The notes beneath the pieces are model-generated. The model was not told where the DNA came from and did no database searches. It was given only the letters and a program-made list of their open reading frames with translations. From the IMG/VR virus record IMGVR_UViG_3300010373_000457, positions 1-22,507 of that record: a stretch of 22,507 bases of DNA. One strand, written 5' to 3'. The DNA comes from a virus. The first letter of the stretch is position 1; the number at the start of each line of letters is the position of its first letter. A program made the position numbers and the translations under genes. Of the stretch, positions 4,317 to 17,643 are shown in pieces.

Positions 4317-4323
4317 TATATAG
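4317..4323 (-). promoter_or_regulatory. Possible late promoter, variant CTATATA
   Basis: CTATATA on the minus strand lies 48 bases upstream of the 670-residue protein's ATG at 4268 and is followed by CGAG. It differs from the CTAAATA motif of this window at one position. The predicted transcript would have a leader of about 43 bases that carries the AGGAGA ribosome binding site. It is weaker than the exact matches and is divergent to the CTAGATA element at 4360. Confidence 0.35.
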
Positions 4324-4359: not shown

Positions 4360-4366
4360 CTAGATA
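4360..4366 (+). promoter_or_regulatory. Late promoter variant CTAGATA, five bases before an ATG
   Basis: CTAGATA is followed by CACAC and then the ATG at 4372. The spacing is identical to the exact CTAAATA-N5-ATG arrangements at 8838, 12774 and 17637. No Shine-Dalgarno sequence is seen before the ATG. With T4-type geometry (motif ending at -6) transcription would start on the A of the ATG. Confidence 0.5.
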
Positions 4367-4371
4367 CACAC

Positions 4372-4773
4372 ATGCCGGTAAAGAGCTTCAAGCAATATGT
4401 AGAGGACAGAGATCAAGATTCACCAGACGGTGATGCCGAAAATTTGCCTGATAACAAGAAACGCAATGGACTTGCCGATCCTGATCCAGGTGAATTGAAG
4501 CAACCTCACAAGCCAAACAGCAAGGATCTTGATCTTGCCAAGCAAGCTATCCAGCTAATCATGGGTAGGAATGCCAAGTGGCATCGTACCGTTTACAAGT
4601 TCCTGCGCAAGTGTGGTGAAAAGATACCAGACGTAGGTCACGTCGTTGATAACATGGAGAAACCAAAGGATTACGATAAACTCTTTGGTCCTCAGTTGGG
4701 TAAAAACGATGTGGAGCCTGATGTGCTTTCACCAAATGGCGCAGACAGTTCTCCAGCGTATTACCAGAAATGA
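4372..4773 (+). CDS. Hypothetical 133-residue protein with capsid-targeting-like N-terminus
   Basis: No family is recognised. The protein starts MPVKSFKQYVEDRDQD, which resembles the N-terminal capsid-targeting peptide of T4 internal proteins (MKTYQEFIAE), with YVE a possible prohead-protease site. Residues about 15-50 are Asp, Pro and Lys rich and probably disordered. A short helical segment (about 52-100) follows, with a Pro-rich, Gln-Lys tail. It is the only plus-strand gene inside the head module and starts divergently from the 670-residue protein. There is no clear ribosome binding site; CTAGATA lies exactly five bases before the ATG. Packaging into the capsid is inferred from the N-terminus and location. 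Confidence 0.75.
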   Translation: MPVKSFKQYVEDRDQDSPDGDAENLPDNKKRNGLADPDPGELKQPHKPNSKDLDLAKQAIQLIMGRNAKWHRTVYKFLRKCGEKIPDVGHVVDNMEKPKDYDKLFGPQLGKNDVEPDVLSPNGADSSPAYYQK

Positions 4774-4817
4774 AATTAAGATTTAGAGAATGGAGAAAAC
4801 TTTTTAACAGACCTTAG
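4770..4817 (+). CDS. Possible 15-residue reading frame coupled to the preceding gene
   Basis: An ATG at 4770 overlaps the stop codon of the preceding gene (ATGA) and opens a 15-codon frame beginning MKLRFREWRKLF. The start style resembles the MKFKDWLLE and MKTFEQYV N-termini nearby, so this could be the surviving 5' end of a truncated capsid-targeted gene. It may equally be chance. The rest of the gap to the convergent GNAT-like gene shows nothing else. Confidence 0.2.
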   Translation: MKLRFREWRKLFNRP

Positions 4818-4826
4818 CTCGTTTGG

Positions 4827-5312
4827 TTAAACATCTTCTACACTGTAGGGATACCCTTCACGCCCACGCCTTATTTGTTCTGGCTCTGGAAATCTTGCTA
4901 AACTTGATTTGTTCTTCCCCCAGAATTGTCTGCCCTCTGGGGTCTGGTATTCATGCCTGTAGATGGGTCCAACCTGCTCTGTGAAATAATCATACATTGC
5001 GCGTGCAATGCCTTGACCGCGATAGTTTTTATCAACGTGGACGTAATCGGTCGAGTAAGTGTGCTTCGGACCCTTGAAGATTTCGCCATTCTTAGTGAAT
5101 CTGACCGATCCAACCAACTTGCCATCCTCCGTATGGACTTGGACAGAGTAAGACCATCCAGCCGGACCCTTTGACGATTCGATCTGGATTATGAACTTTT
5201 CCCCATTCTTTCCTTTGAAGTAAGACTTGCCTCCCTCAGTTTCAGTAAATTGAGTGCTGGTGTGGTCCCATATCATGAGTCTGTTTTCAAGCAGCCAATC
5301 TTTGAACTTCAT
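4827..5312 (-). CDS. GNAT-like N-acetyltransferase, possibly capsid-packaged
   Basis: This 161-residue protein contains the hallmark acetyl-CoA binding motif of GNAT acetyltransferases, VDKNYRGQGIARAMYDY at about residues 93-109, where RGQGIA forms the pyrophosphate-binding loop. Preceding strands (about 38-90) fit the GNAT core. The protein is short on the C-terminal side, and no substrate can be inferred. The N-terminus MKFKDWLLENR resembles T4 capsid-targeting peptides and contains LLE, a fit to the LxE cleavage rule of gp21-type proteases. If that holds, the enzyme would be packaged and injected, like T4 Alt. The start is supported by GGAGAA a few bases upstream. It lies between the DUF2934-like gene and the convergent plus-strand gene. 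Confidence 0.7.
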   Translation of the reverse strand: MKFKDWLLENRLMIWDHTSTQFTETEGGKSYFKGKNGEKFIIQIESSKGPAGWSYSVQVHTEDGKLVGSVRFTKNGEIFKGPKHTYSTDYVHVDKNYRGQGIARAMYDYFTEQVGPIYRHEYQTPEGRQFWGKNKSSLARFPEPEQIRRGREGYPYSVEDV

Positions 5313-5347
5313 AATTCTCCAGCTTACCCACTACCAGTGATGTTTGA

Positions 5348-5617
5348 TTACAGAAACTTAATAATCGGGAAATTAAGAGGAAGAACCAAATCGACCTCAT
5401 TTAATATCTTGGTTGGGTCTACAATCTCGTCGGTTAGACATAACTGCAACCTCCCTCTATTGATCTCATCAAACTCGCACTCCGCTGCAACCCAGAAGTC
5501 GATGCTATTACCATAAGGGCTTCCAGCTTTTAACCATTTGTGGTAAGCCGCTTCTCTCACTTGATTCTCACGATAGTTTCTCCACAATTCGGCTAGATCC
5601 GAAAGATAACACTCCAT
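5348..5617 (-). CDS. Small protein with DUF2934-like motif
   Basis: This 89-residue protein has a segment at about residues 20-51, REAAYHKWLKAGSPYGNS followed by IDFWVAAECEF. That matches the DUF2934 pattern (arginine, AY, W, aG.P.G, then W..AE). The role of that family is not known to me. The ATG overlaps the portal stop codon by one base (TAATG at 5617), indicating translational coupling with the portal gene. GGAGAA in the portal 3' end is a plausible ribosome binding site. The C-terminal about 35 residues are unrecognised. Confidence 0.65.
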   Translation of the reverse strand: MECYLSDLAELWRNYRENQVREAAYHKWLKAGSPYGNSIDFWVAAECEFDEINRGRLQLCLTDEIVDPTKILNEVDLVLPLNFPIIKFL

Positions 5618-8217
5618 TACAATTCTCCAAGCTCAATCGGGTCGATCTCCTCCTCGTCCTTCTCTTTGGAGAAATCACGAATCTCAAGGTCATACTTCTT
5701 GATGTCTTCATCCGAAGGTTCCGGTAGTGGTTTAGCTTCTGGTTTTGCTTGTGCGCCAGCCGGTCCACCTGCTTGAGTACCACCTGCGCCTCCGCCAGGA
5801 GGAGGTGGTGTTCCGCCACCAGCACCCTGATCGCCACCTTCCGGTTGTTCACCTTCGCCCCCAGCACCACTTGCTCCACCGGCACCCTGACCACCTCCCA
5901 ACATTGGGTTAGGACCACCGGCTTCACCACCCATCTCTTGATCGCCCTCACCGGGGTTGCCAAGACCTAACATCTCAGGGTTCTGACCCATGACCTGAAT
6001 CTTCATGTCCTCAATAGCCTGCATCTTCGCACGGCTTGACATCTCGCGAGCCACATCTGGCTGGTACTTGAGAATTTCAACCAAGGCGTCATACTTGCTC
6101 ATCAACTGAGCCTGGACAACGGTGGAAGCGTTAGTGTAACGCGCCTGCATGACCTCCATGCGAGACATTTCACGCCACTCGCTCGGAGGTGTTAACTTGA
6201 TCTCAAGGTCATCCCACATTTCCTGGGGATAGCCACGGAGCGTGAGGTGACGCTCAGCAATTTCTAGAAGCCCGTCTGCAAGGGAGGATTGTAGACGCTC
6301 GATATAACGGGCGAACTTCACGTCCTGGCTGGAAAGCGTCATCTTACTGACGTTCGGATCATCCTGAGACAGGTAGTTCTTCGGAAGATGTAACGCCGTG
6401 AGCAACTTGTTACGGAAATAAAGGGCGTCATCTACCTCGCCCAAGTTCTGCGCACCAGGCAGTGTCTCGATACGGGTGTTACCATTTGGACGAATTGGTA
6501 GCCAGAAGTCTTCGTCTTGTGCCGGTGCGTGCCATCTTTCTTCCACTGAGCCTGCACCACCCGTTTGCGAAGCACGGTTGGTGTACATCTTCTTCTTGCG
6601 TAGCTGGTCTTTCAGGCGCTCAATGAAGGCTTCAGCTTTGTTTGGCGGCAAACTACCAACATCGACATAGAAGACTCTTCTCTCAGGTGCGCGAGTTAAA
6701 CGATACACAACCATCGCATCTTCCATCAGACGTAACTGGTGCGCAGGACCGCGAGCCGGTTCGATGATGGATACACCATACGGATAAAACGTCTTGCGAT
6801 CATCACCGATCCGTATGTGAACAATCTGTTCAGGTGCAAAGCGAATAGCAGTCGCCTGGGCAAGTTCTGCATCATTCGCCTGCGTAACATCCACACGCGC
6901 GAGGGATTGATAGTCTGGACCTTCTTTGCTTTGCTGGAATTCCAGCAATTTACCCTTGGTAGTTTCAATGCGATAGATACTGTCTGCCGGAAGCGGGTTA
7001 ACTTTTAGCACACCCAGCTTTGGATTCTCTGGGTCAATAACAACCTCACCAAACCAATCTCCCATGCAGTACAAGTTCTTTGCCCAATTCCAAATCTTAC
7101 GATCTACCTTGAGCAACTTGTGATACATATACTCCAGTTCCTTCTTCACCGTCTCGTTCTTACAGACGATGTTAAAGGTGTGACCATTGTCACCAATCTG
7201 GCAGTTATGTAGAATGCAACTATCAGTAGCAAAATTCTCATGGTCATCAACGCTGATGTCATAAACATCAATTGTTGGACCCTTAGCGGTGCCGATGACA
7301 CGACGACGATCTGGATGACGAGCATTAAGAGACTTAACTTCTCGATAAGTAAAACCGTTCCTGCGTAGGAGGGTTTCAATTGTCTTCCAGTCAACCTTCT
7401 TCTCGCCGCCTAGAATCTTCTTGGTTTGTTCTAACTGAAGTCCTTCGGTGAGGCACTTGAGGGCTGTCTTCAAGCGGGGGTCGTACCCCGCCTTGTCGCC
7501 CATCCTCCACTCGTCCACGAACTGACGTTCGTGCTTCCAGCCGTCCGCGAAGGTGTAAATGCGTGGAAACTGACTTTGTTTACCGCTATTCAAACCATGC
7601 TGTACACGAACGCGGTAAAAAGGCATAAGTTCATCGCCGGTCTTGATGCTGCCAGCATGAACCCACTCCCCGTTTCTCAAAAGAACGCGGTGATCCTCAG
7701 TAAGCCTGAGCTTGGTTCCGTTATCGAGAAAGATGTCTACAGTGGGAGCAGTCTTGACTTTACGAGCATCATGACCCCATCCCAAGGTGTAATCTCCCCT
7801 ATGGAAGTCGTAACAGTAGACAAGGAACTTTTCCCCAGGTTTCTTGGTTTCCGCCAACTTCTGAATCGAGATATTGCCAAAAGGGGTAGAGACGGGGGTA
7901 TCGCCACTCACACAGGATTCGTCTGCCAAAATGTCAAGAGCAGCTTCTATTTCTGCCACATAGCGGAGACGTTCATACTCTTTGTAGCGACTTTGACGGT
8001 TGGTAACACTGGATAGGTCGATGAAGTCGTTGGAGTCACGCAGCCTGATCTGACCCCTATTACCTCCACCCCACCAGTTGTCGGCGCGGATGTCGGGAAT
8101 AGCATCAGGCTGTGTAACACCAACGCCGTCAAGCGTTTTCTCAGCACGCTTTCTCGACAGGGGGTCTGGCTTGAAGGCGTATGTGAAGTATTTGTAAAAG
8201 TCTGCCCAGAATGGCAT
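5617..8217 (-). CDS. 20: Portal protein, T4 gp20-like, interrupted by an intein
   Basis: The precursor has 866 residues. Residues 1-101 and 339-866 form a T4 gp20-type portal, the dodecameric channel at the capsid vertex through which terminase pumps DNA. Family features include SRYKEYERLRYVAEIEAALD before the intein, CQIGDNGHTF after it, and the segments KEYERL, GVSIIEPARGP, RAPERRVFYVDVG and PKNYLSQDDPNVSKMTLSSQD. Splicing would leave about 629 residues, longer than T4 gp20 (about 524). Part of the surplus is a Gly, Pro and Gln rich tail (about 745-830) ending in an acidic patch. The ATG at 8217 follows AAGGAA with good spacing, and an exact CTAAATA lies 49 bases upstream. The downstream small gene overlaps its stop by one base. 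Confidence 0.93.
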   Translation of the reverse strand: MPFWADFYKYFTYAFKPDPLSRKRAEKTLDGVGVTQPDAIPDIRADNWWGGGNRGQIRLRDSNDFIDLSSVTNRQSRYKEYERLRYVAEIEAALDILADESCVSGDTPVSTPFGNISIQKLAETKKPGEKFLVYCYDFHRGDYTLGWGHDARKVKTAPTVDIFLDNGTKLRLTEDHRVLLRNGEWVHAGSIKTGDELMPFYRVRVQHGLNSGKQSQFPRIYTFADGWKHERQFVDEWRMGDKAGYDPRLKTALKCLTEGLQLEQTKKILGGEKKVDWKTIETLLRRNGFTYREVKSLNARHPDRRRVIGTAKGPTIDVYDISVDDHENFATDSCILHNCQIGDNGHTFNIVCKNETVKKELEYMYHKLLKVDRKIWNWAKNLYCMGDWFGEVVIDPENPKLGVLKVNPLPADSIYRIETTKGKLLEFQQSKEGPDYQSLARVDVTQANDAELAQATAIRFAPEQIVHIRIGDDRKTFYPYGVSIIEPARGPAHQLRLMEDAMVVYRLTRAPERRVFYVDVGSLPPNKAEAFIERLKDQLRKKKMYTNRASQTGGAGSVEERWHAPAQDEDFWLPIRPNGNTRIETLPGAQNLGEVDDALYFRNKLLTALHLPKNYLSQDDPNVSKMTLSSQDVKFARYIERLQSSLADGLLEIAERHLTLRGYPQEMWDDLEIKLTPPSEWREMSRMEVMQARYTNASTVVQAQLMSKYDALVEILKYQPDVAREMSSRAKMQAIEDMKIQVMGQNPEMLGLGNPGEGDQEMGGEAGGPNPMLGGGQGAGGASGAGGEGEQPEGGDQGAGGGTPPPPGGGAGGTQAGGPAGAQAKPEAKPLPEPSDEDIKKYDLEIRDFSKEKDEEEIDPIELGEL
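7204..7914 (-). other. Mini-intein within the portal protein (237 residues)
   Basis: The intein spans precursor residues 102-338. Block A starts at Cys102 (CVSGDTPV). Block B contains the TEDH signature (Thr173, His176). Block F is VYDISVDDHENF, and the C-terminal splice site is His337-Asn338 followed by Cys339 of the extein. All residues of a standard class 1 intein are present, so it should splice. The roughly 100 residues between blocks B and F (about 201-305) show neither LAGLIDADG nor an HNH signature. They contain a helical segment and a basic stretch, so this is probably a mini-intein with a non-endonuclease or relic insertion. Joining DES to CQIGD restores a continuous portal sequence. 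Confidence 0.92.
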
Positions 8218-8265
8218 ATCAATTCCTTTTCACTTTCTCCCACACATAACTGAGTGAGATCAAGT

Positions 8266-8272
8266 TATTTAG
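8266..8272 (-). promoter_or_regulatory. Late promoter CTAAATA upstream of portal
   Basis: An exact CTAAATA on the minus strand lies in the short gap between the Q-rich gene and the portal gene, 48 bases between motif and ATG (8217). The predicted leader of about 43 bases includes the portal ribosome binding site AAGGAA. The motif resembles the T4 late -10 element TATAAATA; I recall a CTAAATA late motif described for Vi1-like (Ackermannviridae) phages. Confidence 0.65.
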
Positions 8273-8289
8273 GAGGTGCCAGTCGAAAA

Positions 8290-8832
8290 TCAGTACCTTG
8301 GATAAGAAAGCGGATTGTAGAAGCCATGATGCACCAACTTGTTTTTTAAGCCTTGTGCATCAAGCTGCCCGCTCTCAATCTGCTTTTCCCAAACAGGGAA
8401 TCTTTTGGCGTTGACATTAAGCATGTCCTTAAGCGGCTCTGCCACGTCCTTGTATCTTCCTATCTGACTGATCGCTTGAGATAGTTTTGGGAAATTCTGG
8501 AGTTGCTGGGCTATTTCAGGTTTTAGACCCTGAAGTTGAACAGGTGCCGCAGCAGGGCGACCCATATTCTGTCCCTGTTGTGGGTTTGATTGCGGGTTCG
8601 ATGTTTTGCCTGCTGCGGCACTTAGTTGCTGAACGTACTGCGCCATTGACTTGATCTTTTGCTCAACCCCTTGATATTGATTAGGGTTGTGTTGAGTCCA
8701 AGTGTTCACTGAGGTGGCAAGTTCTTCTAACTCACTAGCGGCTCGTTTCGCACGTTGGGCTATCATTCGTGGCATATTTTGTTGCCACTTGGCGTCCCAC
8801 TGCTCAACAACATACTGCTCAAAGGTCTTCAT
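8290..8832 (-). CDS. Gln-rich 180-residue protein with capsid-targeting-like N-terminus
   Basis: No family is recognised. The frame is open to 8847, but the start at 8832 (MKTFEQYVVEQ) is preferred. It gives a T4 capsid-targeting-like peptide (T4 consensus MKTYQEFIAE), and CTAAATA lies exactly five bases upstream. The five extra codons would be formed largely by that promoter motif. Residues 15-75 are helical. Residues 75-125 are rich in Gln, Asn, Ala and Pro and probably flexible. The C-terminus is Tyr-rich (YNPLSYPRY). There is no Shine-Dalgarno sequence before either ATG. It precedes the portal gene. An internal capsid or core role is inferred from N-terminus and position. Confidence 0.72.
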   Translation of the reverse strand: MKTFEQYVVEQWDAKWQQNMPRMIAQRAKRAASELEELATSVNTWTQHNPNQYQGVEQKIKSMAQYVQQLSAAAGKTSNPQSNPQQGQNMGRPAAAPVQLQGLKPEIAQQLQNFPKLSQAISQIGRYKDVAEPLKDMLNVNAKRFPVWEKQIESGQLDAQGLKNKLVHHGFYNPLSYPRY

Positions 8833-8837
8833 GACCC

Positions 8838-8844
8838 TATTTAG
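8838..8844 (-). promoter_or_regulatory. Late promoter CTAAATA five bases before ATG at 8832 (leaderless)
   Basis: An exact CTAAATA is followed by GGGTC and ATG. With T4-type geometry the first transcribed base would be the A of the start codon. It lies in the 19-base gap after the stop codon of the secreted peptidase gene. Confidence 0.6.
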
Positions 8845-8851
8845 CATTGGG

Positions 8852-9520
8852 TCATTCTTTTATGCGCTCCTCATCCACGACGGGTTTAACTTTTTCGCGA
8901 TACTCGGAAGTGGCTGGTCGCTCTGGGTACAAGAGAATGGCATAACCAGTCCAGTGCTGATCAAACCACTCACGACTTGCCGTATATCTTGAACACTTCC
9001 CTCTGTTCTCGATGAATATAAACTCATTGTCATCAAGGTGTGTAAGAGTGACCATGTGATAGTCACCAATCTTGGGGTAATCCCTCAAACCCACGGCACA
9101 GCCCAAATCCTTGTCCACCGCCTCTTTGAGAATGGCGGTGTCGTAGTTGTAGTGTCTTTGTAGCCAGTAGTGCTTGACCTTTAGCCTCTTGAACTCAGCA
9201 AGAACTCTCTCAGGAGTTCCTGGGGCTTCGTTAACATAGCTCCAGTGCGGTCCCTCAATTTGCACCCACTGACCCCATTGATTGATTGCATAGGCTCCTT
9301 CCACCCATGTCTTCACCTTGCTATAGTTGTCGTGGCGGTACTTAGCGATGCCCTTGAGTTGCGTGACGCCATGAATGTTGGCAAGGTCTTCAAGGGCACA
9401 CCACACACAGCAACCTGATGGAAAATTGTGGACGCGCTGCTCCTGCGGGATGTCCACCTCTGCGAACGCGGCGACTCCGACGAGTAATGCGAATAGCACG
9501 CTCAGGAAAAACTTCTTCAT
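8852..9520 (-). CDS. Secreted papain/C39-like cysteine peptidase (putative)
   Basis: Starting at the ATG at 9520, which follows CGGAGGAGT, the protein has 222 residues. It begins with a clear signal peptide (MKK, hydrophobic residues 4-19, AFA before Glu21), so it should be exported across the inner membrane. A Cys-rich helix start SGCCVWCALEDLANIHG (residues 36-51; Cys37 or Cys38 as nucleophile) is followed about 115 residues later by GDYHMVTLTHLDD (His155) and an Asn in ENRG (172). This Cys-His-Asn order fits C39/papain-like peptidases, though the classic GGCGPTAL-type motif is not exact. It could act in host periplasm on envelope proteins or peptides. An upstream in-frame start at 9568 would hide the signal peptide and is rejected. 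Confidence 0.72.
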   Translation of the reverse strand: MKKFFLSVLFALLVGVAAFAEVDIPQEQRVHNFPSGCCVWCALEDLANIHGVTQLKGIAKYRHDNYSKVKTWVEGAYAINQWGQWVQIEGPHWSYVNEAPGTPERVLAEFKRLKVKHYWLQRHYNYDTAILKEAVDKDLGCAVGLRDYPKIGDYHMVTLTHLDDNEFIFIENRGKCSRYTASREWFDQHWTGYAILLYPERPATSEYREKVKPVVDEERIKE

Positions 9521-9530
9521 ACTCCTCCGT

Positions 9531-10049
9531 TTAGGCGTTGTACCTCTTGGAAAGATGTCTGATAACATCTCCCGAATGTTTTAATAGTGCCGTGAATCCA
9601 AAATGTTTAGGGCTAAGCTCCATTAAGCCTTCGTACCCCACCCAGACGAATCTATCGGTTTCCCAATTGATTTGCGGCTCCCAATCGCCTTTGACAATCT
9701 CGCCAATGAAATTGTGATAGGTGAACTTTGGTTTCCTTAACTTATCTTTTTCCGGTGATACATAAACGTAAGCCGGATGTAGTGTTAAAGGACCGTTATA
9801 TTCTGTCTCCTCAAAAAACTCCCTACGGGCAGCTTGGTCTGGCGACATCTCTTCGTCATCGATCTTTCCACCTATCGTAGACCAAGTGTGAGGTTCATAG
9901 CCGACCCCTCCAGATCGGAGCGCTACTAGCCATTTGCCTATGTCTGTAGCAATGGCGAGAACACCGGCACCCTGAGAACCCCAATAACCCCGGCTTTCCA
10001 AGAAGATTCCAAATGAGGGATACATATCATATATACTTAGCACTTCCAT
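9531..10049 (-). CDS. Nudix hydrolase
   Basis: This 172-residue protein has a Nudix box at about residues 59-84: GGKIDDEE, then MSPDQAARREFFEETEY. Compared with the canonical G-x5-E-x7-REUxEExGU it has one extra residue before RE and Glu in place of the final Gly; the metal-binding REFFEE core is intact. Strands before it (LAIATDIGKWLVALRS) and after (FTYHNFIGEIVKG) fit the fold. Substrates of phage Nudix enzymes include nucleoside triphosphates, ADP-ribose, NADH and dinucleoside polyphosphates; none can be assigned here. It starts 14 bases from the divergent sulfotransferase-like gene, and neither start has a clear Shine-Dalgarno sequence. The stop is 10 bases before the secreted peptidase start. 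Confidence 0.88.
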   Translation of the reverse strand: MEVLSIYDMYPSFGIFLESRGYWGSQGAGVLAIATDIGKWLVALRSGGVGYEPHTWSTIGGKIDDEEMSPDQAARREFFEETEYNGPLTLHPAYVYVSPEKDKLRKPKFTYHNFIGEIVKGDWEPQINWETDRFVWVGYEGLMELSPKHFGFTALLKHSGDVIRHLSKRYNA

Positions 10050-10063
10050 TACTTTTCTAAGAC

Positions 10064-10717: not shown

Positions 10718-10973
10718 CCTGTTCTGCCTTGAGCATTTCATCAAGCTTCTGAAGTCGCCAGCGGGCTTCATCTAGTCTGAGACGCTTTTTCTGCCTTTGT
10801 TCCTCTTCTAGCTTGAAATTCCTTTCGCGCTTTTCGCGCTTGTTGTGAACCTTCGTAAGCTCATCAAGAGCAGCTACCAAATACCTGCGCGCGTTCGCGA
10901 GGGCAAAATCACTACCTGCCTCACGAAGGGCTTGTTGAACATAGGTTGCCGCTGATTCTGCGTTCTTCTTCAT
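10677..10973 (-). CDS. Small charged coiled-coil protein, unknown function
   Basis: The protein has 98 residues when started at the ATG at 10973, one base after the terminase stop (TAACATG), which suggests reinitiation after terminase translation. AAGGAA lies in the terminase 3' end but is rather far upstream. It is rich in Lys, Arg, Glu and Gln, and residues about 20-85 form a likely helical coiled coil (KVHNKREKRERNFKLEEEQR, then a QKKRLRLDEARW stretch). No family is recognised. A frame extension to 11024 would overlap terminase by 50 bases and is less likely. The 3' end overlaps the convergent sulfotransferase-like gene by 41 bases. Confidence 0.6.
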   Translation of the reverse strand: MKKNAESAATYVQQALREAGSDFALANARRYLVAALDELTKVHNKREKRERNFKLEEEQRQKKRLRLDEARWRLQKLDEMLKAEQVKWQTGSNQSDSP

Positions 10974-10974
10974 G

Positions 10975-12768
10975 TTACCAATCAAATTCCTTAAGGAGTT
11001 CATCAAATGGGCGACGGACATCATGCATGACGCGACCCATCATCAATGCCTCGTCTCCTGTCATCATGTCGTCTTCCTCGTCTTCTGCCTGCTCAGCAAG
11101 AAGTTCCTCAATCATACCACCTTCCAATTCCGCCTTGATCTTGAGGAAGAGGTCGCCCTTGGATAGGTCAATGGCATTATCAGAGTAACCTTTGAGCCGA
11201 TGTGCGCCAATTGGCATCTCGCGTCTGCGTGCATCAAGAATGCCCATAAGGAGAGCCAAACACATCACCAAGTCATCATGCTTGCCCTTCTGGGCTTGCG
11301 GCTTCTTGTTGAGAACTACAAAGGTCTTCAGTTCCTTGACTAAGCGGAAGCTCTTGATCTTGATCCTACTGTTGTGTAATGCCGCTTGCATCAATTCGAG
11401 GAATACCGGACGGTTGCCCTTGTTCATGTTAACACCAGCCGTTTCCATATTGCGGCGAGTTTCGTAGTGCAGGTTTGGATAACCCAAGCCGTATTCCAAC
11501 TTATTGATAACAGTTAAGCCCTGTTCTGCGGCTTCCACAATTACCAAAGCTTCCTTGTACCATCTACCTACGTTGAAGACGACCTGGGCAAAGTCATTAG
11601 CGGGGATGGAGTTGGAGTAGAATTCACCAACTTGCTCCATCGTATCCAGCCGCGCGATGATGAAGGCGCTGTTGTCTTGACCAACACCATGAGATACATC
11701 GGCTGTAAGAACATATTCAACACCGTCCTGCGGCTCCTCCCAAATCCACATGGCACCACGGTTGTAGTGAGGGTTAAGCATCTTCCAATCTTCGTGGGCA
11801 CCCGTATCATCATTTTCCCATTCGTGGAATAGCTTTTTGATGGGCGGTGTGCGACCTGTGATCTTGGCAAGATTGGTGATACACTCACCGCTAACATAGG
11901 TTTCACCAGATCCCAGGAAGTCACCCAACACTTCTTGACGCCAACCTTTTTCACCTAGGTTGGCACGCATCTCCTTCACCCAATCGGCATTATTGTACTC
12001 CGGGTTCTCCGTGTATTCAATGTCGATGACGTGGAACATATTCTTGTGTTGCTGAGCGGCGTGGAACCATTCCTCATACCAGTTACCAAGACCATTGACG
12101 GTCGAGATGACAATACAGCTACCACCAGTGGACAGCGTTGGGTACATGGACTTCCAGTGTTCGTCCATGTTCTTGATGAACGCCGCTTCGTCAATAATGA
12201 GGTAGGTCAAAGACTTGGAACGAGCAGCTTCGCAGGTCCAGAACTCAATGGAACCGTTGGTATCACTGAACACCTTTTCGTGCTGGTTGTCGAGTTCAAC
12301 ATCCGGCTTTATCCATTCTGGAAGATACTTCAAGACGTTGGTGACAATCTTGCCAGCGCCCTTGGCTTCACGGTCAGACTTGGACAGAATCATGATCTTC
12401 TGGTCGTTCTTGAACATGCAACGCCAGAGTGCCCAGATCACGGTTAAGGTGGTCAAACCGCCCTGACGGAATTTGCGAATAATGCTATGTTTGTATTCGT
12501 CATATTCACGAATACATCTCTCCTGATACCCGTACAGGTTAAAAAGCACCAGACCGCGCTTCGGGTGGGTGATGTAAACATAGTTCTCCGCGAAATACTT
12601 GAAGGATTCCGCACAGCGGGTGTACTCCTCAAGCTTTTCATCTTGAGACAATTCTTCTAGCGCATTGCGGTATGATTCACCGCCGTCAGTTGATTCCACC
12701 AGTTCTTTGAGCCGTTCTGAAATCCATGTTGGATCTCTCGCTTCCGTGAGCGCAGTATTCGTTTCCAT
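10975..12768 (-). CDS. 17: Terminase large subunit, T4 gp17-like
   Basis: This 597-residue protein has both terminase domains. In the ATPase, a Walker A-like loop FRQGGLTT lies at residues 100-107, where canonical GKT has Leu in place of Lys. Walker B LIIDEAAF is at 190-197 (Asp193, Glu194) and coupling motif STVNG at 222-226. In the RNase H-like nuclease, the metal-binding acidic residues are probably Asp357 (TADVSHG), Glu412 (VIVEAAEQG) and Asp498/Asp499 (KGKHDDLVMC). It docks on the portal and packages and cuts DNA at the head-filling end. The length matches gp17 (about 610). CTAAATA lies exactly five bases before the ATG and there is no Shine-Dalgarno sequence at a usable distance, so the mRNA may be leaderless. 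Confidence 0.95.
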   Translation of the reverse strand: METNTALTEARDPTWISERLKELVESTDGGESYRNALEELSQDEKLEEYTRCAESFKYFAENYVYITHPKRGLVLFNLYGYQERCIREYDEYKHSIIRKFRQGGLTTLTVIWALWRCMFKNDQKIMILSKSDREAKGAGKIVTNVLKYLPEWIKPDVELDNQHEKVFSDTNGSIEFWTCEAARSKSLTYLIIDEAAFIKNMDEHWKSMYPTLSTGGSCIVISTVNGLGNWYEEWFHAAQQHKNMFHVIDIEYTENPEYNNADWVKEMRANLGEKGWRQEVLGDFLGSGETYVSGECITNLAKITGRTPPIKKLFHEWENDDTGAHEDWKMLNPHYNRGAMWIWEEPQDGVEYVLTADVSHGVGQDNSAFIIARLDTMEQVGEFYSNSIPANDFAQVVFNVGRWYKEALVIVEAAEQGLTVINKLEYGLGYPNLHYETRRNMETAGVNMNKGNRPVFLELMQAALHNSRIKIKSFRLVKELKTFVVLNKKPQAQKGKHDDLVMCLALLMGILDARRREMPIGAHRLKGYSDNAIDLSKGDLFLKIKAELEGGMIEELLAEQAEDEEDDMMTGDEALMMGRVMHDVRRPFDELLKEFDW

Positions 12769-12773
12769 ACCAC

Positions 12774-12780
12774 TATTTAG
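12774..12780 (-). promoter_or_regulatory. Late promoter CTAAATA five bases before the terminase ATG (leaderless)
   Basis: An exact CTAAATA is followed by GTGGT and the ATG at 12768. AAGGA is present, but more than 15 bases upstream of the ATG and before the promoter motif, so it would not be transcribed from here. The geometry predicts transcription starting on the initiation codon. Confidence 0.62.
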
Positions 12781-12848
12781 ACTGATCCTTGCTTATTTGC
12801 CCATAACGTGTTAAGGTTTAAGCAATACCCGCAAATGGAGGTTTAACG

Positions 12849-13403
12849 ATGCCGATTGAAAATGAACGGAAGTACGTCCTTCGCCTGAATACATCCGAAA
12901 AAAAAATCAGTGAAGCATCTGACTTCATGGAAGATATTGAGCAAGTGTACATCATGGTTGGCAAGAAACAGTCGGCTCGTATCCGTCTCATTCGCCTGTT
13001 CAGACCCGACAATTGGGTTGAATTCAAATATACCTTTACCTATAAGCAAGATGTGGGCAAGAAAACCGTGGAGGTTGAAACTCCATTAGACCCGCAGGAC
13101 TACCTTATGCTGAAGAAGGACGCTATCTTGAAGTTCAGGAAGCGGAGGTATAAGATTGGTGGTTGGGAAATTGACTTTTTCATTGATGGTGCGCCCGGTG
13201 AGATTTGTAAAACTTACTTCGTCCAAGCTGAAATCGAACTTCCCGAACACAGGAGGAAACCAAAAGAGATTCATCCTCTGGTTAAGGAAAACTTGCTTCA
13301 TGCAGTGAAGCGCGGAGATGGTCGTTTTTCTAGTAAAAAGCTGGGTGATATGAAGTATGCCCGGCGTCTGTTGCAATCCTTGTTGTTGGAGACGAAAGTA
13401 TGA
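12849..13403 (+). CDS. CYTH-domain protein (triphosphate tunnel metalloenzyme-like)
   Basis: This 184-residue protein carries the CYTH signature ExExK near the N-terminus (IENERKYVL, Glu4, Glu6, Lys8). Alternating charged strands typical of the triphosphate tunnel fold follow: ARIRLIR (about 43-49), VEFKYTFTY (57-65), WEIDFFID (about 108-115) and VQAEIELP (about 125-132). Family members hydrolyse inorganic triphosphate, thiamine triphosphate or RNA 5'-triphosphates, or make cAMP; the substrate is not determined here. GGAGGT lies seven bases before the ATG. The stop overlaps the ferritin-like start (ATGA at 13400-13403), so the two are translationally coupled. It starts divergently from terminase. 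No convincing promoter is seen in the 80-base gap on this strand. Confidence 0.82.
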   Translation: MPIENERKYVLRLNTSEKKISEASDFMEDIEQVYIMVGKKQSARIRLIRLFRPDNWVEFKYTFTYKQDVGKKTVEVETPLDPQDYLMLKKDAILKFRKRRYKIGGWEIDFFIDGAPGEICKTYFVQAEIELPEHRRKPKEIHPLVKENLLHAVKRGDGRFSSKKLGDMKYARRLLQSLLLETKV

Positions 13404-13903
13404 ATGATCAGATGAAAAATCACATCCAAATGAAGGTGCAAGCAGCGGAGGACTCCCTGCAAGACCTTGCGCCGGAAATGGTTAGAGAGCTTCAAAACGT
13501 GCTGATGCATGAGCGCAAGCATTTTAACTTCTATCTCCAGTCCTCCCTGGAGATTCGCGGCATGGAGAGACTTTATCTCAAGCCGCTTCTTGAGAAGGAA
13601 ATGGCTGGCGAACTGGAACACATCCGCATGTTCGGCGATAAAATTGTCGCCCTTGGCGGCAAGCCCACCGACGCCGCTCACGACTTCTGTCTTAGTCGTC
13701 TTGGTGAAGCTCTAAGCGCCCATACCATCTTATTGAAAGCCGTGAAGATGGAGCGAGAAGTCTTGGTTGTCTACCACGCACTTTATCCCAAGGCTGAGAA
13801 GTTTGCCGAAGCCTTCAATGATATGTCCATCGTCCTTATGCTAGAGGATAACATCGAGCATACTACGGCAGATGTTGAAGAGATGGAGAAGATCCTTGGC
13901 TAA
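13400..13903 (+). CDS. Ferritin-like four-helix protein
   Basis: This 167-residue, nearly all-helical protein has the layout of the ferritin-like superfamily. It has Glu38 in a first helix (HERKHFNFYL), ELEH in the second (Glu71, His74), a Glu in the third (Glu118 or Glu120 in KMEREVLVVYHAL), and a fourth helix with LEDNIEH (Glu149, Glu153, His154). These are plausible diiron ligands, though the last ExxH spacing is not canonical. It could store or oxidise iron, or act as a structural or oxidative-stress protein. The start overlaps the CYTH stop by four bases. It is followed by the long hairpin at 13911-13963 in front of the next gene. Confidence 0.75.
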   Translation: MNDQMKNHIQMKVQAAEDSLQDLAPEMVRELQNVLMHERKHFNFYLQSSLEIRGMERLYLKPLLEKEMAGELEHIRMFGDKIVALGGKPTDAAHDFCLSRLGEALSAHTILLKAVKMEREVLVVYHALYPKAEKFAEAFNDMSIVLMLEDNIEHTTADVEEMEKILG

Positions 13904-13910
13904 TCAAGAA

Positions 13911-13963
13911 TTGGGTTCCCTCCACTATATTACCATAACGGTAATTCAGTTGAGGGAACCCAA
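13911..13963 (+). promoter_or_regulatory. Long hairpin sequestering the ribosome binding site of the next gene
   Basis: A 12-base perfect inverted repeat (13911-13922 with 13952-13963) encloses a further 3-base pairing (13924-13926 with 13948-13950) and a 6-base inverted repeat ATTACC/GGTAAT (13929-13934 with 13940-13945) closed by a 5-base loop. The right outer arm contains the only Shine-Dalgarno sequence (GAGGG, 13952-13956) and the A of the start codon at 13963. There is no T-run, so it is not an intrinsic terminator. In an mRNA read through from the ferritin-like gene, the fold would mask initiation. Confidence 0.8.
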
Positions 13964-14808
13964 TGCCTTTCTACCAGAACGTATTCGACAACGACTTCAT
14001 CGGGCATCTTCTTCTTGAAGACAGGCAGTACGTCCTTGACTTCAAGGTGCCCGCAAACAAGAACAAGACCATCTACGCCTATGCGTGGGCGGTGCCGCCG
14101 TACAACACGGTTGGCAACACCTCTTTGACCATCAACTACTCGATTGACGCTGGTGCCACTTGGTACTCATTTAACGTCACATTGACTTCTGGTTCGGCGC
14201 AAACCGCCGCCCAGGTCGTCGCTGACCTGAATGGTGATCAGAACTTTGCCTCCCTGTTCACGGCAATTGCTGTTCAATTAGGGGATCAGTCGTACCGTTT
14301 GATGATCCAAGCAAACTCCACCCAGAGAGAGCGCTTCAAGTTCTACATTTCCAATACCGGCGCAGAAACCGTTCTCAGGTTCAACGCAATGGCTGGTGTG
14401 GCACAGTTGCCGGCTTACTTCGACAGACATACCATCGCCAATTTCCAGGCTCACGGTCCTGGCGGCGATAATACCTACCCAGATTCCTTGGGTACACTGG
14501 TGAAGTTGAATCAGCCAACAGATAATTGGTATATTACTAATGCCGGCTTGAGTACAACGGCATCAGCGGATTGGCAGCTTCTTCGTGGGCGTTCCAGGGC
14601 ATTTATGTTCCAGAACATCGCCACGGACTCTGGAAACAGCAACCGCATTACTTCAATCATTGAGTATCCGGCAGGCGCACAGGCGGGAGATTTGGCAAAG
14701 AAGACCGAGTATGTTTACAGCAGCGGGAACACAACCACTCAGCCAAACTACACCTTCGAGATTCCTTATGTCTTGCAGGCGTCTGACTTGACCACGATCC
14801 CAACGTAA
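13963..14808 (+). CDS. Unrecognised beta-rich protein, possible virion surface or decoration protein
   Basis: This 281-residue protein has a beta-strand-rich, Thr, Ser, Asn and Tyr rich composition with few Lys or Cys. The pattern is common in phage structural, decoration or fibre-associated proteins. Segments such as TSLTINYSIDAGATWYSFNV and the C-terminal NYTFEIPYVLQASDLTTIP suggest immunoglobulin-like or jelly-roll strands. No signal peptide, membrane segment or catalytic motif is seen. The ATG is the only sensible start and its GAGGG ribosome binding site lies in the right arm of the hairpin at 13911-13963. Structural function is inferred from composition and from the tight translation control expected for an abundant or late product. 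Confidence 0.7.
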   Translation: MPFYQNVFDNDFIGHLLLEDRQYVLDFKVPANKNKTIYAYAWAVPPYNTVGNTSLTINYSIDAGATWYSFNVTLTSGSAQTAAQVVADLNGDQNFASLFTAIAVQLGDQSYRLMIQANSTQRERFKFYISNTGAETVLRFNAMAGVAQLPAYFDRHTIANFQAHGPGGDNTYPDSLGTLVKLNQPTDNWYITNAGLSTTASADWQLLRGRSRAFMFQNIATDSGNSNRITSIIEYPAGAQAGDLAKKTEYVYSSGNTTTQPNYTFEIPYVLQASDLTTIPT

Positions 14809-14837
14809 TAAGGTTGTCAAATTTAGTGCCATGATGA

Positions 14838-14844
14838 CTAAATA
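14838..14844 (+). promoter_or_regulatory. Late promoter CTAAATA upstream of 14880
   Basis: An exact CTAAATA followed by CGGG lies 35 bases before the ATG at 14880 in a 71-base gap. The predicted leader of about 30 bases contains AGGGAGG at the normal Shine-Dalgarno distance. Unlike the terminase-type copies, this one gives an ordinary leadered mRNA. Confidence 0.65.
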
Positions 14845-14879
14845 CGGGTGGCAGCTATCTTTGACACAGGGAGGCACTT

Positions 14880-15449
14880 ATGGCTGATGATGTTAAGATT
14901 GAACACAATACAGACCCACAGGGTCGCCGCGTCGAAACTCGCGTTTACGAAACCGTTGTGGACGGCAAGAAGGAGCGTGTAGTTGAAACGCATGTTGAGC
15001 AAATCCCGATGGTACTTTCGGAACGTGTTGTCGAGGAGATTGCTCCCGTTGTCACCACCCGCAAGAAAGAAACCTACAAGGACGGCAAGGTAGTTGACAG
15101 CCATGTCGAGGAACTCGACAAGGGCACGATGAAGATGGTTCCTGCGGCAAAGCCACAGGAAAGCCTTCTCACGAAGGACGATCTTATGAACGCCATTCGT
15201 GAAGTTGTTAACGCCCGCGAACAGGCACCACGCGAGGTTAAACCTGTTGCCAAAACCGTTGCTCCGGTTGTTGTTGCCCCTGAACCAGAAAAGGAAGAAG
15301 CTCCAGTTGTTGTCCAGCCAAAGAAGGCTTCTCCAGTTGTTGCGGCTGGTAGCAAGATTTGGGAACTGGTCGAGGTTGGTGCTTATGTAGTTTTGTCTGG
15401 TGAACTGGCATTTTGCCTGTATCAACTTGTACTGAAGAACTGGCTATGA
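14880..15449 (+). CDS. Lys/Val/Pro-rich protein with C-terminal membrane segment
   Basis: No family is recognised. The 189 residues begin with a charged beta-like segment containing related VETRVYETVVDGKKE and VVETHVEQIP stretches (about 18-42). A Pro, Ala, Val and Lys-rich spacer follows (about 115-155; APVVVAPEPEKEEAPVVV, then VQPKKASPVV). The C-terminal about 28 residues include a hydrophobic stretch (VGAYVVLSGELAFCLYQLVL) that could span a membrane. A C-tail anchored protein, or a Pro-Lys spacer reaching from the membrane as in some spanin or TonB-like proteins, are options. AGGGAGG precedes the ATG and CTAAATA lies upstream. Its stop overlaps the next start (ATGA at 15446-15449). Confidence 0.65.
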   Translation: MADDVKIEHNTDPQGRRVETRVYETVVDGKKERVVETHVEQIPMVLSERVVEEIAPVVTTRKKETYKDGKVVDSHVEELDKGTMKMVPAAKPQESLLTKDDLMNAIREVVNAREQAPREVKPVAKTVAPVVVAPEPEKEEAPVVVQPKKASPVVAAGSKIWELVEVGAYVVLSGELAFCLYQLVLKNWL

Positions 15450-15691
15450 GTGAAGACGCCGTACTGATTGCAGTGGATCAGAATCCGCCAAAGGCTCCCG
15501 CAAAGGAGCCTTTGGTGGCTGGTGACTGTAAGTTACATGACCCCCAACATCAAGAGGTGAAGCTGCCAGCAGAGCCGGCAGTACCACCTATATCAAAACC
15601 CGAACCTTTGCCGGCAGCGCCACCGGAGGCTAAGCCAGAACCAAAAAGGGTGCTTAGACCCTGGTACGAAATGCTCGATAGCAGGAGATAA
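15446..15691 (+). CDS. Small Pro-rich protein, unknown function
   Basis: This 81-residue protein is very rich in Pro, Ala, Glu and Lys, with repeated KPEP/PEPK-like stretches, and is probably disordered. The ATG at 15446 is chosen because it overlaps the stop of the preceding gene (ATGA), the same coupling as elsewhere in this cluster; an in-frame start 33 bases earlier would overlap more. Its Pro-Lys composition resembles the spacer of the upstream membrane-anchored protein, so the pair may act together. A strong terminator follows at once. Confidence 0.6.
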   Translation: MSEDAVLIAVDQNPPKAPAKEPLVAGDCKLHDPQHQEVKLPAEPAVPPISKPEPLPAAPPEAKPEPKRVLRPWYEMLDSRR

Positions 15692-15692
15692 G

Positions 15693-15716
15693 CCCCGCCC
15701 CTTGGCGGGGTTTTTT
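15693..15716 (+). terminator. Intrinsic terminator
   Basis: CCCCGCC (15693-15699) and GGCGGGG (15704-15710) form a 7-base GC-only stem with loop CCTT, followed by six T (15711-15716). It closes the plus-strand operon two bases after the stop codon at 15691. Confidence 0.95.
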
Positions 15717-15732
15717 ATTGGAAAGGAAAGTC

Positions 15733-17262
15733 ATGAAGAAGATTGTCGCAGTCGTAGGGGGATTCTGTGTGGTCCTCCTGTCTCTCTTGGTTCTTTCTAC
15801 CAAGGCTCCCCAAGTTGTACCACCATTCCAACAGGTTATTCCGTCTCCCCAGCAGAGATATCCTGCGAAACCTAATTTGACAAATACGTTCCCAGGATAT
15901 CAGGACTACGCCACCATCCAGAGGCAGCTAGAGGAGTGGAAGACCCAGGCTCCAGGGCTGGTAGAAACCGGCACCTATGGCACGTCTTCTAGGGGCAGGC
16001 AGTTGTCCTATATCCGTGTCACCAATTTGTTTGACCCAACCCCCAAGAAAAAGGTTTTAATCACCGCTTGCATCCACGGCAATGAACCTTTAGCTTGCAG
16101 TACCACGATGGGTTTCATCGGCACCATGTTGTCTTCTTACACAACTGACCCGGAAGTAACCGAACTCATCAACACCAGAGACATCTATTTCGTGCCAGTG
16201 GTATGCCCCGACTCTTATCCCCATAGTCGTCACTGCGATGGCGTAGATCCCAACCGGAACTTCCCAACAGGTCCACAGGATTCCAAGAGATCCGTTGCAC
16301 CCTTGGATGCCATTCAGAAGTGGTTCCTTCAGATCAGGTTTAATGCGGCGATCTCTGGTCACACCTTTGGGCGAGTGTATCTGAGTCCCTATGGCGATCA
16401 AAATGCACCATGTCCCAATGAAGCAGATTACGTCCGCGTCCTGGGAAAGATGCAAAGTCTAAGCCACTATAACAGAATGCGCGCCTGTCAGGTATACGGG
16501 CGTCCGATCTATGGCTCGGAAGTTGACTGGTATTACCGTAATGGTGCCTTCTCCATCGTGTGCGAATATGGAACCCATCAACAGATCCCATCCATGTCGG
16601 ATACTAAGACGGAGTTTGATAGAACCTACAGGGCTACCTTGATCTTTATCAGGGAAGCACCACTGGTGATAGGGCAACAGCAGAGTCCTTTTTTTCAGCC
16701 ATCCAATTCCCTGCATAGCCGGAACATTCCGCGTATACCTAATACGCCAGTAGCTCCATCTATGCCCAGGAGAACCCCACCTCCGCCACCGATGATGCAG
16801 CCGCCAGCTATGCCTCATTCACACATGCTGCCTTTGCCGCCGCCCATAATGCCACCACGCAATTCTGCCAATCCAATGAAACCGTGGAGTTCAATGCTGC
16901 CCTTCCCGCCAGGCGTACCGCATCCGGGTATTCCAAACTTATGCGGCTTGGAATCGTTCAAGTATGACTATTCCTTCTTGAATGGCGATGAAGTGACAGG
17001 GCTTTTCCGTCCAGCAGCCACTGTTGATGTACTGAGTGCTTCCGAAGAAACTCATCTCCGCGTTATGGGTATGCCCACAACAAACAACATCGCAACCTCG
17101 CGATTTGGCGAGCTTAATGGCACGTTCCTTGATGTGTTCCGAACACCTCAAGTAACTCTTGCTGCTATGCTTTGCCGCCCTCGCAATGTAATGCTCGTCC
17201 CTGAAAAGAAGACTGTCCAGCTTTTGCAGGAGCCAGTAGATCATGTCACCAATCCACGTTAA
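15733..17262 (+). CDS. Exported M14-family zinc carboxypeptidase with Pro-rich tail
   Basis: This 509-residue protein starts at the ATG at 15733 behind AAGGAA. Residues 4-22 form an N-terminal signal peptide or anchor. The M14 catalytic domain (about 55-310) shows zinc ligands His115 and Glu118 (CIHGNEP), the substrate-binding DPNRNF motif (172-177), a third ligand His210 (ISGH) and the catalytic Glu278 (CEYG). Such enzymes remove C-terminal residues from peptides or cleave peptidoglycan stems. Residues about 320-400 are rich in Pro and Met (PPPPPMMQPP). The last 107 residues (403-509) are read antisense to the metallophosphoesterase gene and have no visible family features. It follows directly behind a terminator, with no clear promoter of its own in the short gap. 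Confidence 0.88.
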   Translation: MKKIVAVVGGFCVVLLSLLVLSTKAPQVVPPFQQVIPSPQQRYPAKPNLTNTFPGYQDYATIQRQLEEWKTQAPGLVETGTYGTSSRGRQLSYIRVTNLFDPTPKKKVLITACIHGNEPLACSTTMGFIGTMLSSYTTDPEVTELINTRDIYFVPVVCPDSYPHSRHCDGVDPNRNFPTGPQDSKRSVAPLDAIQKWFLQIRFNAAISGHTFGRVYLSPYGDQNAPCPNEADYVRVLGKMQSLSHYNRMRACQVYGRPIYGSEVDWYYRNGAFSIVCEYGTHQQIPSMSDTKTEFDRTYRATLIFIREAPLVIGQQQSPFFQPSNSLHSRNIPRIPNTPVAPSMPRRTPPPPPMMQPPAMPHSHMLPLPPPIMPPRNSANPMKPWSSMLPFPPGVPHPGIPNLCGLESFKYDYSFLNGDEVTGLFRPAATVDVLSASEETHLRVMGMPTTNNIATSRFGELNGTFLDVFRTPQVTLAAMLCRPRNVMLVPEKKTVQLLQEPVDHVTNPR

Positions 17263-17631
17263 GACGGGATGGTTGTCAATGAATTCATCAAAGATATGAC
17301 CGTGGAGTATCAACACCTTCTTACCGCCACTGACGAACTCATAGTTATTCACTACCGTCAGTCCAAGAAGGTGTGATATTACCTCGGCGGGACCATCGTG
17401 ATTACCGACCACCCATACAACTTCCATTTTGTCAGAAATCTTCCTCAGTCTAGATAAGATGCGCCAGTGGTGTTTTTCTAATCTGCGAAAATCCATCGAG
17501 TCAAAGACATCTCCATTTAGAATGAGTCGTGTGCTGCGGCTTTCGATGTTCTCAAGGAACGCTTCAAGCATCTTGGCTTGACAGCAATCACTACCTAAAT
17601 GGATGTCCGATATGATCGTGGTGGTGTCCAT
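16939..17631 (-). CDS. LpxH-like metallophosphoesterase
   Basis: This 230-residue calcineurin-like phosphoesterase has all metal-binding blocks: SDIHLG (Asp9, His11), LNGDVFD (Asp41), VGNHDG (Asn77, His78), ILHGHIFDEF (His110) and CGHTHN (His187, His189). The HGHIFDEF block followed by a hydrophobic, Trp-rich helix (WIGDMIYWLLQKLDSLLF, about 126-143) is typical of UDP-2,3-diacylglucosamine hydrolase relatives (COG2908) that act on a lipid A precursor at the inner membrane. Lipid A or another phospholipid-like substrate is therefore plausible but not proven. CTAAATA lies exactly five bases before the ATG and no Shine-Dalgarno sequence is seen. Its 3' 324 bases are antisense to the carboxypeptidase tail. 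Confidence 0.88.
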   Translation of the reverse strand: MDTTTIISDIHLGSDCCQAKMLEAFLENIESRSTRLILNGDVFDSMDFRRLEKHHWRILSRLRKISDKMEVVWVVGNHDGPAEVISHLLGLTVVNNYEFVSGGKKVLILHGHIFDEFIDNHPVLTWIGDMIYWLLQKLDSLLFRDEHYIARAAKHSSKSYLRCSEHIKERAIKLAKSRGCDVVCCGHTHNAEMSFFGSTQYINSGCWTEKPCHFIAIQEGIVILERFQAA

Positions 17632-17636
17632 AATTG

Positions 17637-17643
17637 TATTTAG
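17637..17643 (-). promoter_or_regulatory. Late promoter CTAAATA five bases before the phosphoesterase ATG (leaderless)
   Basis: An exact CTAAATA is followed by CAATT and the ATG at 17631. No Shine-Dalgarno sequence exists upstream. The predicted transcription start is the A of the start codon. It is divergent from the sigma70 promoter at 17693. Confidence 0.62.

Follow-up and report, generated by a model that had tools for sequence, protein, structure and literature searches.

The IMG/VR virus record IMGVR_UViG_3300010373_000457, a stretch of 22,507 bases analysed as a whole and called the window here, carries the heptamer CTAAATA close to the start codons of several genes. Is this heptamer the −10 box of a late promoter of the phage T4 type, and does its position imply mRNAs that begin on the start codon itself? 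The head genes in the window are of T4 type (the start of the major head protein gene, a prohead protease, a portal protein with an intein and the terminase). It is very probable from the sequence features described below that leaderless mRNAs are driven by a T4-type late promoter. Most likely, these are leaderless late promoters, many of which would serve cargo that is packaged into the head by means of an N-terminal tag resembling that of the T4 internal proteins. Late timing, the use of a gp55-type sigma factor, the packaging of tagged proteins, their injection and the actual 5′ ends of the transcripts are what we infer in this report.

Boxes and start codons in the window

Both strands of the window were scanned for boxes. 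CTAAATA is present five times, whereas 1.31 copies are expected and one of 100 shuffled sequences gets to five. Three of these copies are separated from an ATG by exactly five bases, and a CTAGATA precedes a fourth ATG at the same distance. None of the four genes has a Shine-Dalgarno sequence (SD) of at least four letters at usable spacing. The other two copies of CTAAATA are located 48 and 35 bases upstream of ATGs, and both of these genes have an SD. All of these positions, and the presence or lack of ribosome binding sites, had been reported in the initial annotation and were confirmed. The sites and genes of the putative leaderless class are:

4360–4366 (+): CTAGATA, putative −10 box of a late promoter, 5 bases before ATG 4372
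4372–4773 (+): gene with the N-terminus MPVKSFKQYVED, similar to a capsid-targeting sequence; neither PHROG nor Pfam gave a match at E 0.001
8838–8844 (−): CTAAATA, 5 bases before ATG 8832
8290–8832 (−): gene with the N-terminus MKTFEQYVVEQ, similar to a capsid-targeting sequence (T4 IPI starts with MKTFKEF)
12774–12780 (−): CTAAATA, 5 bases before the terminase ATG 12768
10975–12768 (−): terminase large subunit (phrog_2), without tag
17637–17643 (−): CTAAATA, 5 bases before ATG 17631
16939–17631 (−): calcineurin-like phosphoesterase (PF00149)

The sites and genes of the putative leadered class are:

8266–8272 (−): CTAAATA, 48 bases before the portal ATG (at 46 in the close relative L004)
5617–8217 (−): T4-type portal protein with intein (PF07230 and PF14890)
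14838–14844 (+): CTAAATA, 35 bases before ATG 14880 with the SD GGGAGG (at 36 in L004)
14880–15449 (+): gene without a match in the family searches
4317–4323 (−): CTATATA, 48 bases before ATG 4268
2256–4268 (−): conserved gene starting MQRKLIGYDVF..., SD TTAGGAG; none of the 64 distinct starts known from the group falls in the leaderless class

With only four sites in the window and AT-rich words being common, chance or an artefact of gene calling in AT-rich sequence has to be considered. However, none of 200,000 random placements of five motifs gave three at one common ATG distance (range 0–60). The reading frame of 8832 has an earlier in-frame ATG at 8847, which abuts the motif; start 8832 is favoured because of the T4-like MKTFEQY start. 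No gene follows another CTAGATA, located at 17450 (+). The open reading frame (ORF) 16939–17631 was dropped by the gene filter because it overlaps an M14 peptidase ORF, and it is absent from all pooled counts given below. The peptidase ORF (15718–17262, +) is antisense to the phosphoesterase and overlaps it by 324 bases.

Spacing of the box in related phages

Large related records were found via the portal gene (80 of 111 matches listed). In the phage collection, the terminase is matched best by LR756511, an uncultured phage of 595 kb (43.9% identical). Pooled counts refer to a set of nine records, LR756511, G001 and G003–G009, with G007 read for 60 of 158 kb. G002 was added later and read for 399 of 459 kb. 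G010–G014 were searched by pattern only, G010 by family as well. Genes were called by a longest-ORF filter of 60 codons, and ATGs were counted in the first quarter of each ORF.

CTAWATA occurs 603 times in the nine records. Of these copies, 107 are located 4–8 bases before an ATG, 11 at 9–14 and 109 at 15–50. The counts at distances 4, 5, 6, 7 and 8 are 35, 34, 14, 12 and 12, so the mode is at 4–5. Four reversed or permuted control words have only 7, 7, 10 and 7 copies at 4–8 (of 966, 803, 902 and 1508, respectively). The start codons behind CTAWATA at 4–8 are ATG, GTG and TTG in a ratio of 107:7:4. In an unbiased scan of 7-mers 3–8 bases before ATG, box-like words ranked in the first ten together with SD words in seven of the nine records (the exceptions are G007 and G009); CTAAATA itself ranked there in four of nine. 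The degenerate motif nTANATA at 4–8 bases reaches 5 to 21 times the expectation in each of ten records, with the sites of G002 spread over 4–7 rather than peaked. The whole genomes of T4 and Aeh1, unlike this group, have no excess at the leaderless spacing. Observed and expected numbers are:

LR756511: 100 observed, 9.2 expected
G001: 87 observed, 9.4 expected
G002: 43 observed, 6.6 expected
G003: 33 observed, 1.8 expected
G004: 36 observed, 5.8 expected
G005: 26 observed, 1.7 expected
G006: 17 observed, 0.8 expected
G007 (60 kb): 5 observed, 0.4 expected
G008: 22 observed, 2.0 expected
G009: 11 observed, 2.0 expected
T4 (whole genome): 2 observed, 3.9 expected
Aeh1 (whole genome): 0 observed, 2.5 expected

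The GC-rich records G003 (56% GC) and G006 (58% GC) share the excess, and its presence in ten related records further argues against chance, which is thereby left as an extremely improbable explanation. The initial annotation had proposed to test for a genome-wide peak at five bases. The excess at short distance stands, but the peak covers 4 and 5 and sometimes extends to 6–8. The finding extends beyond the window to a leaderless spacing of a T4-type late box across a group of giant phages.

Outside this group the arrangement is faint. CTAAATA or ATAAATA followed by N4–8-ATG was compared with the reversed control, which gave the following numbers (box:control, for CTAAATA and then ATAAATA):

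LR756511 (one of the nine records above): 21:5, 19:14
Mel-JY01: 4:11, 21:26
LR756508: 5:6, 10:8
immuto: 4:5, 14:7
ACP17: 1:0, 1:1
S-CREM1: 1:2, 5:1
phiM9: 0:0, 0:0
X1: 1:1, 1:1
GR28A: 0:0, 0:0
PA5oct: 9:16, 12:15
Aeh1: 2:4, 0:1
T4: 3:4, 4:5
RHph_I1_18: 3:0, 7:2
Mosig: 3:6, 11:3

Counted at gene starts, observed against expected numbers are 4 and 2.1 for S-CREM1, 3 and 0.7 for X1 and 9 and 5.5 for immuto. Mostly, the other T4-like or more distant records gave no clear signal in this comparison. Weak peaks are present in two cultured phages, Rhizobium phage RHph_I1_18 (6 observed, 0.8 expected) and Pelagibacter phage Mosig (11 observed, 4.3 expected). Three of the six proteins behind the boxes of RHph_I1_18 start with MISFKQHLNES, MITFKQHISES and MQSFKEHLTES, and for these three genes the box is 5–6 bases away from the ATG.

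The terminase of L004 is 89% identical to that of the window. Its box and the 5-base spacing are kept although two of the five spacer bases differ. L004 also retains the boxes of the portal gene and gene 14880, each with leader and SD. Gene 8290–8832 is missing from the corresponding position. In both the window and L004 boxes precede virion genes (terminase, portal and others). Across gene families, none of the distinct starts is leaderless by rule for the portal (0/68), the major head protein (0/78), the 2256–4268 family (0/64) and the 13963 family (0/23); one major head protein start (L019) has TTAAATA at 4 plus an SD. Leaderless starts by the same rule were found for the terminase (2/6), the nudix hydrolase (1/3) and the 10064 family (1/44). 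Among five phosphoesterase relatives found, a leaderless-spaced box is present in Mosig, G001 and G002 and lacking in G005 and LR756511. The split between both classes thus appears to follow the gene type, with structural genes leadered and tagged proteins often leaderless. Among the 80 listed of 111 portal relatives, most match over ~2.5 kb and over nearly the whole of the 866 residues. The portal intein thus appears to be widespread or nearly fixed among these phages, in a list biased by intein peptides in the query.

Transcription start and promoter architecture

An SD of four or more letters precedes 4 of 105 leaderless-class genes, compared with 54 of 72 leadered genes with a box and 1610 of 2999 other genes. 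Together with the 107 and 109 copies of CTAWATA at short and long distance, these numbers support the earlier proposal that one motif serves both classes. The base before the ATG is a pyrimidine at 86 of 89 sites with spacing 4, 100 of 122 with spacing 5 and 45 of 78 with spacing 6–8 (background 1260/2430, 52%). This preference tracks the position of the ATG and not that of the box, and therefore fits a transcription start on the A. The late promoter of Aeh1, predicted by computer, has CTAAATA beginning at −12 (PMC1524935, in part). With the box start at this position, +1 would fall on the A of the ATG at spacing 5. Both the pyrimidine/A step and the predicted Aeh1 box thus support the placement of +1 that the initial annotation had put forward. 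The small number of sites at 9–14 bases is expected if a gene has no leader at all or one with enough room for an SD. The leaderless starts are thus predictions from signs in the sequence.

The following mechanism is proposed. CTAAATA (degenerate nTANATA, best form CTAWATA) would be the late-promoter −10 box of this T4-like group, recognised by the host RNA polymerase together with a gp55-type sigma factor of the phage, in accordance with the prediction for Aeh1. A box 15–50 bases before the start codon would give a leadered mRNA with an SD, as for the portal and other structural genes. A box 4–5 bases before a pyrimidine-preceded ATG would direct transcription from the A of this ATG, and the resulting leaderless mRNA would be translated via its 5′-terminal AUG.

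Alternatively, the transcripts might begin well upstream, and the AU-rich word just before the ATG might serve as an element for the translation of genes without an SD. Flavobacterium phage immuto has A-rich words 4–8 bases before ATG, and AU-rich start contexts therefore occur in related phages. The word is specific, however, its spacing is narrow and few sites are found at 9–14 bases. Furthermore, leadered genes share both the word and the tract upstream of it that is described below, and neither the preference for ATG nor the pyrimidine/A step is in line with a translation element. This explanation is regarded as very unlikely. A stop codon within the box was also considered as the reason for the motif and rejected, because only 31 of 159 leaderless-like sites with a TAA or TAG box close an upstream frame of at least 60 codons and CTATATA has no stop. 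Initiation factor IF3 and ribosomal protein bS21 were rejected as a general explanation of leaderless translation, as they are encoded in only 3 and 5 of 12 records, respectively. G001, G002 and LR756511 encode both; in G003 and LR756508 bS21 is present and IF3 was not found.

An A/T-rich tract is located 13–19 bases upstream of the box in the leaderless and leadered classes alike. In the leaderless class the positions −19 to −15 from the box are 75–87% A/T, and even the GC-rich G003 and G006 have 74–82% A/T at −17 to −14. At the eight gene-linked sites of the window, 4 to 7 of the 7 tract positions are A/T, with site 17643 being the weakest. Two tracts of the window are:

8857–8863 (−): ATAAAAG, 13–19 bases upstream of the −10 box 8838
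12793–12799 (−): CAAATAA, upstream of the terminase −10 box; AAATAA is also present in L004

In these phages the tract is probably a part of the promoter. T4, Aeh1 and S-CREM1 did not show it (26–30 sites each; T4 30, Aeh1 28). T4 late promoters are not known to have an upstream promoter element.

A gene for a gp55-type sigma factor, which the initial annotation had proposed to look for, was identified through phrog_234 in 8 of 11 related records, with 1.5e-9 as the lowest E value. LR756511.1 has two gp55-like ORFs (400609–400929 and 464476–464784), and the two sigma factors might serve different promoter classes. A search for phrog_12791 as a further late sigma factor gave no match in the 11 records and none in the controls either, so that no absence is demonstrated.

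The boxes could instead be −10 elements of ordinary host promoters of the sigma-70 type, positioned in such a way that leaderless mRNAs result, as for genes of Actinobacteria or Deinococcus-Thermus. In many bacteria, TA-like signals ~10 bases upstream are regarded as a sign of leaderless genes (PMC3160421, in part), and the A/T tract is located roughly 25–31 bases before the inferred start, which would be compatible with such a promoter. On the other hand, the box word ends in ATA with a C in front, like the predicted late promoter of Aeh1, and, compared with a −10 hexamer for sigma-70, it is nearer to the start by 1–2 bases. Leadered genes such as the portal carry the same box and tract, and the distribution of gp55-like genes also favours a late promoter. 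Recognition by a host sigma factor is thus considered unlikely.

Several observations weigh against a leaderless late promoter. The reversed degenerate motif exceeds its expectation at 4–8 bases in AT-rich records (LR756511 44 observed, 11.9 expected; G001 50 observed, 11.8 expected), which also speaks for chance and is probably due to TATATA-like words overlapping in both directions. CTAAATA-N4–6-ATG, searched regardless of gene starts, is present in each of the 15 pattern-searched records (83 sites in total, compared with 30 for the reversed motif), but it does not exceed this control in G002 (5 vs 7), G011 (1 vs 3) and G013 (2 vs 3). Since spacings 4 and 5 are almost equally frequent, the start site would have to shift by one base. 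Shuffled upstream sequences of the 105 leaderless-class genes have an SD in only 9 cases, and SDs are scarce in part simply because the box takes up their position. No gp55 was found in G002, G008 and G009, the hit in G007 holds a stop, and no such gene was seen in the 22.5-kb window fragment. Terminase starts of four other relatives have no box and three of these have an SD. The single leaderless start of the 10064 family is not the copy of the window. Finally, no close relatives were confirmed in viral_contigs for 8290–8832, 4372–4773 and 16939–17631, and 8290–8832 has no match in phages at E 0.01.

Capsid-targeting tags and comparison with known systems

Many genes of the putative leaderless class start with a tag of the T4 internal-protein type. 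The N-terminal pattern M-x-T-F-K-E-W/F-L-E was found in 45 of 105 genes of the leaderless class, in 5 of 72 genes with a leader and in 136 of the remaining 2999. Placed at residues 20, 40 and 60, the same pattern matches 1, 2 and 0 of the 105 leaderless genes. Conversely, when 216 genes were picked by the protein tag alone, TANATA was present 3–9 bases before the ATG in 104 of them, compared with 191 of 2960 untagged genes. In the window, two and perhaps three of five leaderless genes are tagged. Short-sequence resemblance to T4 tags identifies 8290–8832 (MKTFEQY) and 4372–4773 (KSFKQYVED); the start MYPSFGIFLE of the nudix hydrolase resembles a tag, and terminase and phosphoesterase have none. 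The features concerned are:

10030–10036 (−): GTATATA, 4 bases before the nudix ATG 10025; box and spacing identical in L004
9531–10025 (−): nudix hydrolase, tag-like N-terminus MYPSFGIFLESR, missed by the strict pattern; phrog_1198 for the longer ORF
1459–2241 (−): T4 gp21-type prohead protease (phrog_207), the enzyme expected to cut capsid-targeting tags

The nudix start of L004 was put in the SD-bearing class by the automatic rule because AAGG is present. A GNAT acetyltransferase gene (4827–5312, −) starts with MKFKDWLLENR, similar to a capsid-targeting sequence, and has an SD-like GGAG and no box; its product is a possible injected acetyltransferase.

In total 293 leaderless-like genes were collected (four of them in the window), and 101 are tagged. 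The bodies of the 100 tagged proteins that are long enough to compare form 87 clusters, 79 of which are single (no blastp link at E 1e-3). Thus, one kind of start precedes many unrelated proteins. A family scan of 96 of the 101 tagged proteins and the GNAT and nudix proteins of the window matched few bodies, namely acetyltransferases, nudix hydrolases, a C39-type peptidase, a UvrD-type helicase and helix-turn-helix (HTH) proteins. [LI]xE, the motif at which the gp21 protease cuts T4 internal proteins, is present at residues 5–19 in 38% of tagged proteins, compared with 6–16% in later windows of these proteins and 19% in untagged leaderless proteins, although the tag itself favours these letters.

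With a tag at a leaderless start, the information for both late expression and head targeting would fit into a few dozen bases around the ATG. A single stretch that combines the promoter, the start sites of transcription and translation and the capsid-targeting tag might even form a portable module for late expression and packaging; this is a tentative proposal that we consider slightly less likely than its opposite. A coding sequence recombined in frame behind such a module would become injected head cargo and would need neither a leader nor a ribosome binding site of its own. Leaderless translation would then separate cargo from structural proteins, perhaps favoured by phage IF3 and bS21 where present. 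The DNA around the start is highly identical in genes chosen for box and tag, which is partly an effect of this selection. For genes chosen by tag only, identity over the 15 bases before the ATG is 46% in G008, compared with 30% for untagged genes, and the corresponding values are 31 and 28% in LR756511, 30 and 30% in G001 and 29 and 26% in G003. Conservation of the block independent of selection is therefore clear in G008 only, which weakens the proposal of a portable module. Tagged leaderless genes with similar promoter and start blocks form a tandem array at 90–98 kb of G008 (L195).

If this interpretation is correct, one late promoter has two modes, and a few bases of spacing set the mode of translation in a group that includes records of more than 500 kb. 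nTANATA, 4–5 bases, ATG and M-x-T-F-K-x-W/F-L-E would be a signature for candidate injected proteins in uncultured phages (the T4 proteins of this kind include an anti-restriction protein) and could correct start codons missed by SD-based gene callers. The weaker forms in the cultured phages RHph_I1_18 and Mosig make the arrangement testable at the bench. Elsewhere in the window, ORF 20099–21211 (−) contains TSPPY and DPFMGSGTT and is presumably DNA methyltransferase-like, judging from these motifs.

Within titles and abstract openings of the open-licence literature, no description of this promoter arrangement and no paper combining a capsid-targeting sequence with a late promoter was found. 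The closest known systems are T4 and Aeh1. CTAAATA of the window equals the predicted late box of Aeh1, and the T4 late box is TATAAATA; both are gp55-dependent systems. A box at −12 to −6, T4-type head genes nearby and a gp55-type gene are shared with them (PMC1524935, in part). In the 50-kb late region of T4, however, 0 of 16 boxes (within 120 bases of 48 listed genes) are located at 4–8 bases and the smallest distance is 12; for Aeh1 the numbers are 0 of 12 boxes (53 listed genes) and a smallest distance of 18. The A/T tract likewise distinguishes this group from both phages.

The T4 internal proteins have varied bodies after a conserved tag (PMC3012670, in part). They are packaged via the capsid-targeting sequence and then injected. 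A restriction enzyme is inhibited by IPI, and IPIII is required on a particular host (PMC3012670 and PMC9391042, both in part). The T4 N-termini MKTFKEF (IPI) and MKTYQEF (IPII and IPIII) resemble the consensus of the tagged genes described here. Unlike these genes, the ip genes of T4 are preceded by SDs of the AGGA type, and inspection by eye of 90 bases upstream revealed no ATAAATA box.

Leaderless precedents are Thermus phage P23-45 and lambda cI. The AR9 paper states that phage transcripts often lack a leader (PMC5312081, in part), and the TA-like signals mentioned above are regarded as typical of leaderless genes in many bacteria (PMC3160421, in part). A −10 box ~10 bases before the start, the lack of an SD and the ATG start are shared with the bacterial leaderless genes. 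In contrast to these, a T4-type late box would serve leaderless and leadered genes alike in the phages described here, and their leaderless class is linked with a protein-targeting tag.

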